Positions 9,846 through 15,617 of a stretch of DNA of 15,617 nucleotides are shown piece by piece (the stretch's first letter is position 1; the number at the start of each line of letters is the position of its first letter). Source of the DNA: Candidatus Nanohaloarchaea archaeon (GTDB taxonomy: Archaea > Nanohalarchaeota > Nanosalinia > Nanosalinales > JAHENU01); NCBI GenBank assembly GCA_018609855.1, contig JAHENU010000058.1, positions 1-15,617 of the forward strand. The letters are read 5' to 3'. The notes beneath the pieces were generated by a model that worked only from the letters and a program-made list of their open reading frames with translations, searched no databases and was not told where the DNA came from. The position numbers were made by a program, and so were the translations under genes.

Positions 9846-9877
9846 ATACGGCTATGCATTACGTCGGTAGCTCTGGC

Positions 9878-9890
9878 AATGATTTATAAA
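9878..9890 (+). promoter_or_regulatory. TATA box and adjacent upstream element of the FKBP gene
   Basis: AATGATTTATAAA contains the TATA box TTTATAAA (9883-9890), whose end is 23 nt before the ATG at 9913. The same 13 bases occur at 14204-14216 in front of the metallo-hydrolase gene. A GGAGAT at 9902-9907 resembles a ribosome site, but would not be transcribed if initiation is at the ATG. Confidence 0.7.
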
Positions 9891-9912
9891 TGTACGTGAG
9901 CGGAGATAAGAT

Positions 9913-10596
9913 ATGGAAGAGAATGATTTTATCCAAATCCACTATATAGGTCGAATACAAGAAACAGGCGATGTCTTTGATTTGACAAAGGAAGATGTAG
10001 CACGAGAAGAAGACGTGTATGATGAAAATGAAGAATATGGCCCTATTACTATCATTGTAGGTAATTCCTCGCTTCTACCCGCCCTAGAACAAAAATTATA
10101 CGAAATGAGGGTAGGAGATGAAGCATCAGTGTCTTTGTCAGCTGAGGAAGCATTTGGCCAACGGAAGCGTGAGAATATCAAAAAGCTTTCAGCAAAGCAG
10201 TTTAAAAAGCAAGGAGTCAACCCAGAAGTAAATAGTGTCGTTCAAATCGGTGATCAAAAAGGAAGAGTTATTTCTGCCAATTCGGGCCGCGTATTAGTAG
10301 ATATGAATCATCCTTTGGCTGGTAAAGATGTGCGATATTGGATACGGGTTGAAGATAAGATAGAAGACGATGAAGTAAAGTTGCAACATCTTATGGAACA
10401 GAATCTCCCCGAGGTAAATTACGACACAAACGAGAGTACAGTGACGGTGAAAATTGCACAAGAACTCGATGAAACTGTAAAGGAACAATTACAAACAGCG
10501 TTGGAACAACAAATACACCGCTATACTACATACGAACATGTAGAGGTAACAACACCAGGTGCAACTACTGAGACCTCACACGAGAAGAATGTTTAA
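9913..10596 (+). CDS. FKBP-type peptidyl-prolyl isomerase, long archaeal SlyD-like form
   Basis: This 227-residue cytoplasmic protein catalyses cis-trans isomerisation of prolyl bonds and probably acts as a folding chaperone. The FKBP domain begins at IQIHYIGRIQ (7-16), continues through IIVGNSSLLPALEQKLYEM (47-65) and VGDEASV, and is interrupted by an insert-in-flap (about 80-135). It resumes at VDMNHPLAGKDVRYWIRV (129-146), the typical SlyD-type ending. A C-terminal acidic, mostly helical and strand extension (about 150-227) matches the longer archaeal form. There is no histidine-rich metal tail of the SlyD kind. The gene is first in the plus-strand group, divergent from the ABC operon, and probably leaderless. 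A TATA box for ftsZ overlaps its stop codon. Confidence 0.93.
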   Translation: MEENDFIQIHYIGRIQETGDVFDLTKEDVAREEDVYDENEEYGPITIIVGNSSLLPALEQKLYEMRVGDEASVSLSAEEAFGQRKRENIKKLSAKQFKKQGVNPEVNSVVQIGDQKGRVISANSGRVLVDMNHPLAGKDVRYWIRVEDKIEDDEVKLQHLMEQNLPEVNYDTNESTVTVKIAQELDETVKEQLQTALEQQIHRYTTYEHVEVTTPGATTETSHEKNV

Positions 10597-12728: not shown

Positions 12729-14186
12729 CTAATAATCTATAGCGACATATACCATTGCTGCAGCCGGTGCATCACAGACAATACACGACCCACTATCAAC
12801 ATGATTGTCTTCTTGTACATTGATGCCACGCACCTCGGCAGTTGTATCCTCCTTGATGCGTTCTGCACACGACTCACCTGATTCGATAGAGCAGAATGGA
12901 ATTCGCACAGTTTTCTCTTTTTCCAAATAGTGCTGCATATCTGTATATGAATCCGCCGTCACCAGAACAGTGTCCAGTGATTGCTCAGCTCGCTGACGCA
13001 GTGTATCTGTAAAGGTATTTGCAATGTCTGCTAGAGTCTCATAAAGCTCCGTCTGTGATACTGTGAGCTTTTCACCTGTATCCCGACGAACTATCGTCAC
13101 CCGCTGCTCTGCAACTTCTTTTGGCCCAATTTCTATCCGACAACAGGCGCCATGTAATTCCCAGTGGTTGTATTTTTCACCAGGGCTATTATCAGAATCA
13201 TCAAGGTAGATACGATAATGATCAGTGAGCATATTCTGAATCTCTTCACACTGTTTCATGACAGCCGTTGTATCATCACCAAACAGAACAGGGACAATCA
13301 CAGCCTGATATGGCGCAAGTGCAAATGGCAAGATCAGTCCGTTATTATCACCATGTACAGCAATGGTGGCTGCAATTTGGCGAGATACACCGGGTCCCCA
13401 GCACGTTTGCCAAGCATATCGCTCTTGTTTATCTGTATCAAAAAACGTAATGTCAAACGCCTCTGAGAAATTCTGGCCCAATTCATGGGTAGATCCAATT
13501 TGTAAACTCTTCCCGTTCGGTAACGGCACATCTGCAGTATAAGTATTCTTAGCACCGGCGAATTTATCCCAAGCTGGCCGCTGCATATAGAAAAATGGAA
13601 CGCCTAACTGATAGTAGACAACTCGTTCTGTCATTTCCATATCTTCTGCGATTTGCTCCTCCATCTCAGCTCGAGTGGCAAAGACATTATGCGATTCAAA
13701 CCATAGGAATTCTCGTTCTCGTAAAAATGGCTTAGTCATCTTTGTCTCATACCGAAAGACAGAGCCAAATTGGTACAATTTTAATGGCAGATCTCTATGC
13801 GATCTGATCCAGCGGGCATAAGAGGGATACATAGCAGTCTCTCCAGTCGGCTTTAATGCAAGCCGCTCTTCTAAAGGCGTTCCCTGTGAGCCGGCCTCTG
13901 ATACCCAAAACACTTCTGGTGCAAATCCTTCGACATGTTCTTGTTCCGTATAGAAATTCTGCTCTGGCACCACTGTCGGAAATTGAACCGGCAAATGACC
14001 GGTGCGGTGGAACTCACGCTCATAGAAATTCCGCAATTGCTCCACCATGAGCATAGTCATTGGTGTACGGACCACAAATCCTTTAGCTCCGTACTGTTGA
14101 TCAACCAGATCGGCCGCTTGCACCACTGTATTATACCACTCAGTAAACTGCTCATGTTTATCAACATCGAACTGGGTTGCCGGCAT
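12729..14186 (-). CDS. proS: Prolyl-tRNA synthetase, archaeal/eukaryal type
   Basis: This 485-residue class II synthetase attaches proline to tRNA-Pro in the cytoplasm. Counting from the ATG at 14186, visible blocks are LKPTGETAMYPSYARWI (111-127), motif 2 FRYETKMTKPFLREREFLW (144-162), and motif 3 with GPGVSRQIAATIAVHGDN (264-281). A C-terminal domain has four cysteines of the archaeal-type zinc site (C432, C440, C468, C471) and the characteristic final Tyr. It has no bacterial-type INS editing domain. An ATG at 14201 in the same frame is only eight bases from the TATA box, too close to be in the transcript. The ATG at 14186 is 23 nt from it, as in the other leaderless genes, and is preferred. 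The neighbouring Nudix gene follows seven bases downstream. Confidence 0.95.
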   Translation of the reverse strand: MPATQFDVDKHEQFTEWYNTVVQAADLVDQQYGAKGFVVRTPMTMLMVEQLRNFYEREFHRTGHLPVQFPTVVPEQNFYTEQEHVEGFAPEVFWVSEAGSQGTPLEERLALKPTGETAMYPSYARWIRSHRDLPLKLYQFGSVFRYETKMTKPFLREREFLWFESHNVFATRAEMEEQIAEDMEMTERVVYYQLGVPFFYMQRPAWDKFAGAKNTYTADVPLPNGKSLQIGSTHELGQNFSEAFDITFFDTDKQERYAWQTCWGPGVSRQIAATIAVHGDNNGLILPFALAPYQAVIVPVLFGDDTTAVMKQCEEIQNMLTDHYRIYLDDSDNSPGEKYNHWELHGACCRIEIGPKEVAEQRVTIVRRDTGEKLTVSQTELYETLADIANTFTDTLRQRAEQSLDTVLVTADSYTDMQHYLEKEKTVRIPFCSIESGESCAERIKEDTTAEVRGINVQEDNHVDSGSCIVCDAPAAAMVYVAIDY

Positions 14187-14203
14187 AATCGATGCTGTCA
14201 TAT

Positions 14204-14220
14204 AATGATTTATAAAATCA
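14204..14220. promoter_or_regulatory. Symmetric divergent TATA box for proS and the metallo-hydrolase gene
   Basis: TGATTT-ATA-AAATCA (14206-14220) is a perfect inverted repeat with a three-base centre and contains TTTATAAA (14209-14216), itself palindromic. Read leftwards, the box ends 23 nt before ATG 14186 of proS. Read rightwards, it ends 21 nt before ATG 14237 of the hydrolase. No second TATA box is visible in the 50 bases between those starts, so one element appears to drive both. Confidence 0.7.
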
Positions 14221-14236
14221 TGCCTTTTCCGTGAAT

Positions 14237-14815
14237 ATGCACATTGTCCAGCTAAAAGACCGCTCTGCGTATCGCTCTAATGCGTACTATCTGCCAGATG
14301 ACCGTGTAATAATTGATACCGGTGCCGGCCATATAGACTACAGCCGCATCACTGCACTTAACTCTATTCTGCTCACGCATGGGCATCCCGACCATATCGG
14401 CGGTGTAGCGGCCCTTTCCCACACGCACAACTCGACAGTCTATCTCCATGCAGCAGACGGGGAGCACGTTACTTTCTCGTACACACCAGCGTGGGAACAA
14501 ACGCTCCACTGCAACGGCCTTACTTTGCACGTACTCCACACGCCGGGCCATTCTCCTGGTAGTGTCTGCTTCTATGAGCCATCAGACAAGCTCCTGTTTG
14601 CCGGAGACACTGTCTTTGGCTATGGTATTGTTGGCCGCTGTGACTTGCCGGGCAGCAGCATACAACAACTACGTACTTCATTACAGAAACTCTCACAGTA
14701 TGACATCCACTGGATCTATTCCGGTCACGGCCGGCCACTAGACAATGGCAATTGGCACATTCAGCAAGCCATACAGACTATACAATCAGAAGCAGAGGAT
14801 GGTCTTAGGACATAG
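14237..14815 (+). CDS. Metallo-beta-lactamase-fold hydrolase (glyoxalase II-like)
   Basis: This 192-residue cytoplasmic protein has the full metal-binding set of the family. THGHPDH (47-53) supplies H48, H50, D52 and H53; HTPGHSPGS gives H105; AGDTVF gives D124; and YSGHGRP gives H164. Proteins of this group hydrolyse thioesters such as hydroxyacyl-thiols, or act on other small esters or lactones. The glutathione-specific C-terminal domain of true glyoxalase II is missing, so the substrate is unknown. The ATG at 14237 is chosen because it lies 21 nt from the TATA box. The GTG at 14231 would need transcription to start unusually close to the box. It is divergent from proS and convergent with the cysteine-rich gene, 67 bases away. 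Confidence 0.9.
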   Translation: MHIVQLKDRSAYRSNAYYLPDDRVIIDTGAGHIDYSRITALNSILLTHGHPDHIGGVAALSHTHNSTVYLHAADGEHVTFSYTPAWEQTLHCNGLTLHVLHTPGHSPGSVCFYEPSDKLLFAGDTVFGYGIVGRCDLPGSSIQQLRTSLQKLSQYDIHWIYSGHGRPLDNGNWHIQQAIQTIQSEAEDGLRT

Positions 14816-14882: not shown

Positions 14883-15617
14883 TTACGGCATACAGCAACA
14901 GGCTTTCGTGCCGCTGCAGGGCGAATGCTTTGTTTCTGGGACACCGGGAATCTCACAACTAACGATGGAGGTGCAGCTATCAGGAGACGCGCCTGAATAA
15001 TTCTTATCCGCAAAACTCTGACAATACTCAGTACAGGAACTATAGGTTTTGTTGGGAGGGACACTCGTCTCACTAACTGCGCTACAGTCCGGACTAGCAA
15101 ACACCGTTTTATATTGCGGTGTTGCTTCAATGTCCTTGGCCACTCCTTCTTCAGTACTGCCGCTCCGTCCTTTTTCCAATGGACAGGCATCTTTCACGGG
15201 TTCCCACATCACCCGTTTAATTTGCTGTGCAGCTTCTTCAGCTGACATGCCACGGTCTATTAATCCCTTACACATTACCTTTTCGCACGTCTTATGCGTG
15301 AGAGTGGTATTGCCTGTTGAGCACGCACTAATGTCAAAGCAATGCGTCTGTGAGCGGCAGTAGGATGTGGCACCATCGGCACCGGTGACAATGACATCAC
15401 TATTACTATCGCTTTTCTGCAAATTAAACGTCTTGGTACAATAGTCCCACACAGTGCCGGCAAACTCTTCCTCATCGCTGGTCCGTATCTCTTCACAAAG
15501 CGACTCGCATTGTGTTTCCACCTGCTGCCGATCGACCTGCTGTTTGCCACTGCCTGGCTCGGCTTTCCCAATATCTGGCTGCAGAGCCAAAAGAGAAGCC
15601 ATTAGGTACACAGTAAC
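14883..15617 (-). CDS. Cysteine-rich secreted protein, N terminus beyond the window
   Basis: The frame is open to the right edge, so the gene is 5'-partial; 245 codons including the stop are visible. The first residues (VTVYLMASLLALQ) look like the end of a signal peptide. The remainder has 18 cysteines in irregular pairs, three C-x3/4-C units (CESLC, CEKVMC, CTEYC) and a final ACCC. It is rich in Ser, Thr, Asp and Glu, with NxS/T sequons (NTT, NKT, NYS). This suggests an exported, disulfide-stabilised and possibly glycosylated surface protein. No catalytic motif is recognised. Similar disulfide-rich secreted proteins are common in DPANN archaea, but I cannot name a family. It could serve in host or cell contact; that is inferred. 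Confidence 0.8.
   Translation of the reverse strand, partial: VTVYLMASLLALQPDIGKAEPGSGKQQVDRQQVETQCESLCEEIRTSDEEEFAGTVWDYCTKTFNLQKSDSNSDVIVTGADGATSYCRSQTHCFDISACSTGNTTLTHKTCEKVMCKGLIDRGMSAEEAAQQIKRVMWEPVKDACPLEKGRSGSTEEGVAKDIEATPQYKTVFASPDCSAVSETSVPPNKTYSSCTEYCQSFADKNYSGASPDSCTSIVSCEIPGVPETKHSPCSGTKACCCMP

Follow-up and report, generated by a model that had tools for sequence, protein, structure and literature searches.

A candidate bidirectional promoter between proS and a hydrolase gene

The 50-bp spacer between two divergent genes of a Candidatus Nanohaloarchaea archaeon is likely a bidirectional archaeal core promoter, as judged from its sequence. The spacer lies in the window analyzed here, a stretch of 15,617 nucleotides in which proS, encoding proline--tRNA ligase (12729 to 14186, minus strand; above the cut-off of TIGR00408), stands head to head with a gene for a glyoxalase-II-like hydrolase of the metallo-beta-lactamase fold (14237 to 14815, plus strand; below the NCBIfam cut-offs). 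Genes were called mechanically as open reading frames (ORFs). The ATGs at 14186 (proS) and 14237 (hydrolase), both predicted to be leaderless starts, align by eye with the N termini of the homologs in G003, the nearest relative. Each ORF also has one alternative upstream start, an ATG at 14201 for proS and a GTG at 14231 for the hydrolase; at distances of 8 and 15 nt, respectively, these are too near the TATA box, which makes TATA-driven initiation at either unlikely. Elsewhere in the window, a cysteine-rich ORF without a Pfam match (14883 to 15611, minus strand) is open at the window's end.

The spacer itself (14187 to 14236, assigned to no strand) would hold both core promoters. It contains the self-complementary TATA octamer TTTATAAA at 14209 to 14216, which is 23 nt from A14186 of proS and 21 nt from A14237 of the hydrolase. 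These two distances had been given in the original prediction and were confirmed, as were the 50 bases between the genes, whose start codons are 51 bp apart. The inverted repeat TGATTT-ATA-AAATCA, which had been placed at 14206 to 14220, was also found, with arms that run one pair further to give ATGATTT-ATA-AAATCAT (14205 to 14221). This repeat surrounds the TATA box, and its outer bases are the would-be BRE positions in both directions. The octamer has its center at 14212.5, whereas the arms are centered at 14213, so the two symmetries are offset by half a base. An Rfam scan of 13900 to 14600 returned no family at the gathering threshold and no structured RNA in the spacer. Two sigma-70-like matches were present on the plus strand, the better one at 14177 to 14206; a bacterial promoter was dropped as a reading because the genome encodes both TBP (one ORF with two repeats, on contig C113) and TFB (one ORF with two TFIIB repeats, on contig C16), all four TBP/TFIIB repeats scoring over the Pfam cut-off.

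What points to use in both directions is the spacing of the TATA box to the two predicted starts, rather than the mirror symmetry. Spacing was calibrated on 324 kb of the 679-kb assembly (48%; the assembly, G000, is 61% complete). Octamers with at most one mismatch to TTTATAAA had their first base most often at −32 to −27 from candidate starts, with 5, 5, 10, 8, 5, and 2 site-start pairs at −32, −31, −30, −29, −28, and −27, respectively, for a total of 35 that counts the 14209 site in both directions. Given this peak, both proS and the hydrolase gene look leaderless, and both fit the TATA box at 14209 to 14216. The proS ATG is at the modal spacing (−30), and the hydrolase ATG is at −28, inside the range, with 7 of the 35 site-start pairs, its own included, as close or closer. 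Leaderless mRNAs have been defined as those with a 5′ end 0 to 5 nt from the start codon (PMC4983044); a TATA box at about −30 to −23 from the start codon is expected for them, and the octamer spans −30 to −23 from the proS ATG and −28 to −21 from that of the hydrolase. In Pyrococcus furiosus, the last TATA base is reported to lie 23 bp upstream of the transcription start site (TSS) (PMC6640164), a spacing that proS has exactly and the hydrolase misses by 2 bp, so that a start 23 bp from the TATA box would hit the third base of the hydrolase ATG. A position weight matrix (PWM) that included 5 upstream bases scored the site at 13.7 in the hydrolase direction and 13.0 in the proS direction, and the 33 sites used for training, which excluded both target sites and kept those of other shared pairs, spanned 7.9 to 14.0.

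Shared TATA boxes at other close divergent pairs

Across the 324 kb, 42 divergent pairs were scored, and both starts were TATA supported in 11. The same octamer supported both starts in 4 of these 11, at gaps of 49, 50, 50, and 53 bp, and the next pair had a gap of 74 bp. A broader, iterated PWM found 6 of 15 pairs sharing a TATA box, at gaps of 48 to 54 bp; one of these is doubtful (L144, seen with the broader PWM only), as its minus-strand ORF starts with TTG and looks spurious. When the PWM was trained without close divergent genes, five of the six G000 pairs with starts 46 to 58 bp apart had one TATA box usable both ways at a score of 5, the pair in L173 being the sole exception. By the same two-way test, 53 of 238 other G000 genes passed (Fisher p = 0.003).

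The sample is biased in both directions, in that 26 G000 stretches were picked around TTTATAAA sites and forty whole G000 contigs were picked by number from contigs lacking an exact TTTATAAA. In the forty contigs, three of the four close pairs shared a TATA box (L184, L205, and L201, with L173 the one that did not). Divergent genes 49 to 53 bp apart, with one octamer fitting both starts, can be viewed at L156 (2059/2113), L184 (4779/4829), and L205 (2385/2436).

Over 23 close pairs in five genomes, a TATA box at the standard distance from both starts exceeds chance. At a score of at least 5, 9 of the 23 pairs shared a TATA box, compared with an average of 0.7 and a highest count of 5 over 200 rounds in which spacers were shuffled with dinucleotides preserved. 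Outside G000, the 46- to 58-bp test at score 5 gave 3 of 4 in G002, 0 of 2 in G003, 0 of 3 in G004, and 1 of 8 in G010. The count depended on the threshold, with 6 of 23 at score 6 (5 of 6 in G000 and 1 of 8 in G010) and 3 of 23 at score 7 (2 of 6 in G000). For G000 and G002, an excess over other genes was found at score 5 (p = 0.003 in each), and it held at score 6 in G000 only; no such excess was present in G003, G004, or G010, where 1 of 13 close pairs taken together fit at score 5. One divergent pair in G002 (L209-L228, 28574/28625 in joined coordinates) consists of a NikR-like regulator and a ZIP-like metal transporter, both named by eye; their starts are separated by 50 bp and share a TATA-like octamer, and coupling of such a pair could make regulatory sense.

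Gap lengths pooled over the five genomes had no sharp mode at 50 bp. They had an onset near 50 bp and no peak, with 4, 11, 8, 7, and 6 gaps in the bins 45 to 49, 50 to 54, 55 to 59, 60 to 64, and 65 to 69 bp. Starts were chosen for this count without reference to TATA boxes, and the proS/hydrolase gap was counted as 35 bp because the rule takes the proS ATG at 14201.

These data bear on a one-way promoter, in which the TATA box drives one gene (proS), the hydrolase is transcribed from elsewhere or weakly, and the fit in both directions simply follows from having a palindromic octamer in a short spacer. The modal spacing of proS, set beside the −28 of the hydrolase, favors this reading, and the octamer is self-complementary, hence the high reverse scores at most sites: the two-way test was passed by 53 of the 70 other G000 genes with forward TATA support (score 5). 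A second octamer within one mismatch, TTTATCAA at 14157 inside the proS coding region, could moreover give the hydrolase a leadered mRNA. However, the octamer at 14209 is the sole one within one mismatch of TTTATAAA inside the 50-bp spacer, its score of 13.7 in the hydrolase direction is near the top of the training range, and the same double fit occurs in four of the five other close pairs of the genome sample. We consider a one-way promoter unlikely.

Neighboring genes in related genomes

The search for relatives covered 60 genomes, of which 27 besides G000 belonged to the same order and none to the same genus or family. A proS match was found in 26 of these 27, one of them partial and two of them weak and probably other synthetases. 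A hydrolase match was found in 16 of the 27, two of them weak (E values of about 1e-5 to 1e-4); hydrolase matches were 25 to 38% identical and may be paralogs, and contig breaks in the drafts could hide close pairs. G003 was the only one of the 27 in which proS and the hydrolase shared a contig at a distance of up to 10 kb. In that genome the two are still divergent, but 1,428 bp and three ORFs separate them, and inspection of the interval by eye showed no shared octamer like the one here. A conserved function of the proS/hydrolase pair was rejected, since close pairing was found in no other genome searched. In a further genome scan, the 80 matches kept of 392 were distant hydrolases (28 to 43% identity), and they were set aside.

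A second pair allowed a broader comparison. In L201 (G000:C45), trpS and glyS (6010/6065) point away from each other; 54 bp separate their ATGs, and a TATATAA in the middle is suitably placed for either start. The two genes are divergent in all 20 order relatives (of 27) that have both on one contig, and ORFs of at least 60 amino acids lie between them in 18 of the 20. In 15 relatives, ORFs between the genes or beside glyS belong to one cluster, identified by eye as phosphoglycerate kinase. The two relatives without an intervening ORF are G003 (about 620 bp, by eye) and G027, where the interval of 88 bp from ATG to ATG involves its second trpS-like copy. The G024 interval has broken trpS and glyS pieces, and the best trpS match of that genome is elsewhere. 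Visual inspection of the stretch between glyS and trpS in G003 suggested a tRNA with an intron at about 2130 to 2380 of L286 (G003:C13), but ARAGORN called no tRNA there. For trpS/glyS, the neighbor relation is widespread, and G000 was the only genome in which the compact spacer with a shared TATA box was seen, a combination that favors compaction over a conserved regulatory design, in a comparison that is unrooted as to the direction of change between compact and wide spacers.

Compaction could go further and make shared-TATA pairs a recurrent end point in this lineage, reached by promoter fusion through deletion. A pair of outward-facing TATA boxes of sequence TTTATAAA would be direct repeats, as the octamer reads the same on both strands, and a deletion between them would fuse the promoters and leave each leaderless gene correctly spaced. 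The proS/hydrolase pair (three ORFs and 1.4 kb in G003) and the trpS/glyS pair (~620 bp in G003, intervening ORFs in 18 of 20 relatives) fit loosely. These are the two pairs compared, no fusion was observed directly in them, the change is unrooted, and the relatives may instead have gained insertions. Such a history is a doubtful explanation at present.

Significance of the palindrome

The 678,725-bp assembly contains 32 instances of the octamer TTTATAAA, with about 22 expected from base composition. The inverted-repeat arms at the proS/hydrolase site are the longest of the 32 at 7 pairs; arms were 6 pairs at one site, 5 at seven sites, and 4 at twenty-three. When TTTATAAA was held fixed and the rest of the spacer was shuffled, arms of at least 7 pairs had a P value of 0.024, and about 0.75 such sites would be expected among 32. 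The palindrome alone is not beyond chance. Leave-one-out scoring of 33 other sites, which included members of the other shared pairs, gave reverse scores similar to forward scores at most of them, and the BRE is poorly marked in G000. The P value given TTTATAAA, together with the high reverse scores elsewhere, led us to reject the palindrome as a special design. Mirrored flanks, which had been proposed to set this site apart, are not supported as a special feature either, as most other TATA sites in the genome score both ways. At an FKBP26-type gene elsewhere in the window (ATG at 9913; region 9870 to 9913), AATGATTTATAAA lies at the canonical leaderless distance, and this sequence is the identical 13-mer to 14204 to 14216 in the hydrolase direction.

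An operator would give the inverted repeat another role, with a dimeric repressor binding over the TATA box to control both genes. Its perfect 7-bp arms around a 3-bp center, unmatched at the other TTTATAAA sites, would suit such a function, but TGATT-N5-AATCA is found at one place only in the 61%-complete assembly, with no copy at another promoter there, and the arms coincide with the TATA box and adjacent BRE positions, with a P value of 0.024 once the octamer is given. In addition, the FKBP26 promoter carries AATGATTTATAAA, which is identical to the left half of the repeat, but lacks the right half. An operator is highly improbable.

To our knowledge, there is no functional link between a glyoxalase-II-like hydrolase and prolyl-tRNA synthetase. 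The seesaw or balanced coupling put forward in the original prediction, in which opposite preinitiation complexes exclude each other, tie proS and hydrolase levels together, and so matter to the cell, has very little to recommend it: overlapping complexes would have to exclude each other sterically, and activating one direction of Escherichia coli bidirectional promoters tends to lower the other, but basal transcription was reported to be too low for competition at all five E. coli promoters tested (PMC12825309), G003 has three ORFs between the genes, and the close pair is in no other genome searched. Exclusion would matter only if the site were busy; competition in E. coli appeared once one direction was activated (PMC12825309). 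The analysis gave no sign that the spacer acts as a regulatory switch.

Proposed mechanism

Under the preferred reading, a bidirectional core promoter, TBP would bind the nearly symmetric TATA box in either orientation, and TFB would set the direction by reading bases on one side or the other. Preinitiation complexes would then assemble one at a time, facing either way, and RNA polymerase would start about 21 to 23 bp downstream, at or beside the A of the start codon, so that either gene, proS or the hydrolase, would be transcribed into a leaderless mRNA. Regulatory coupling is no part of this model. This model is built directly on sequence, spacing, and recurrence, from which we infer use of TBP and TFB, production of both transcripts, and leaderless translation. 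The occurrence of several compact shared-TATA pairs would be explained most simply if a spacer has to be at least about 50 bp long for two leaderless genes to be served by it like this. The idea of one TATA box for two divergent leaderless genes is accordingly retained in part: leaderless distance in both directions, the TBP and TFB genes, recurrence, and precedent (PMC6640164) argue for it, and the mirrored flanks do not.

As a single site, the spacer carries a modest message, of ordinary parts in a compact layout. A housekeeping gene pair on one TATA box would be a natural test of how direction is set at coding-coding promoters. As shared-TATA pairs recur in the sampled 48% of G000 (proS/hydrolase, trpS/glyS, and three more), this question could be asked genome-wide with one map of 5′ ends.

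Comparison with known systems

Symmetry of core elements is reportedly what lets polymerase load both ways at the prokaryotic bidirectional promoters described by Warman et al. in 2021 (Nat Microbiol), a study whose title is said to name archaeal promoters, and the proS/hydrolase spacer is like them in having such symmetry. Bacterial bidirectional promoters differ in layout, as they are described as sharing a −10 element, usually with 18 bp from one start to the other (PMC10268837). The class II intergenic repeats of halovirus HF2 are similar in being short AT-rich promoters active both ways in a Haloferax reporter, and one of them, IR12c, sits at a coding-strand switch, like the divergent spacer here (PMC8707807). 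Unlike this spacer, the HF2 repeats are viral, 29 bp long, and have three AT motifs, and one shared TATA box is not claimed for them in the available part of that source (PMC8707807). The predicted leaderless starts resemble those of Haloferax volcanii, where most protein-coding transcripts, 72% as reported, are leaderless; the words “divergent” and “bidirectional” do not occur in the main text as available (PMC4983044). In a literature search on archaeal bidirectional, divergent, leaderless, and shared-TATA promoters, no TATA box shared between two leaderless coding genes was among the matches listed; absence from print is not claimed.

The closest precedent comes from P. furiosus, for which a shared archaeal TATA box was demonstrated (PMC6640164). 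As summarized in that study and its references, TBP binds the TATA box almost symmetrically, and direction is set by TFB and the BRE. A BRE-TATA-BRE motif was described there, and at PF1918, one TATA box gave two TSSs 49 bp apart in vitro, with RNAs in almost similar amounts (PMC6640164). The P. furiosus cases were established by RNA and in vitro evidence and are described as mainly antisense transcripts beside head-to-tail genes, few of them leaderless (PMC6640164), whereas proS and the hydrolase, known from sequence only, are two coding genes that both appear leaderless. The layout expected of a BRE-TATA-BRE promoter, a central TATA box with starts about 49 to 50 bp apart, was found here as a near-symmetric TATA box midway between start codons 51 bp apart, compared with the 49 bp at PF1918 (PMC6640164), the start codons here standing in for TSSs. 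The proS/hydrolase arrangement is probably a compact version of a kind of promoter already shown in another archaeon.
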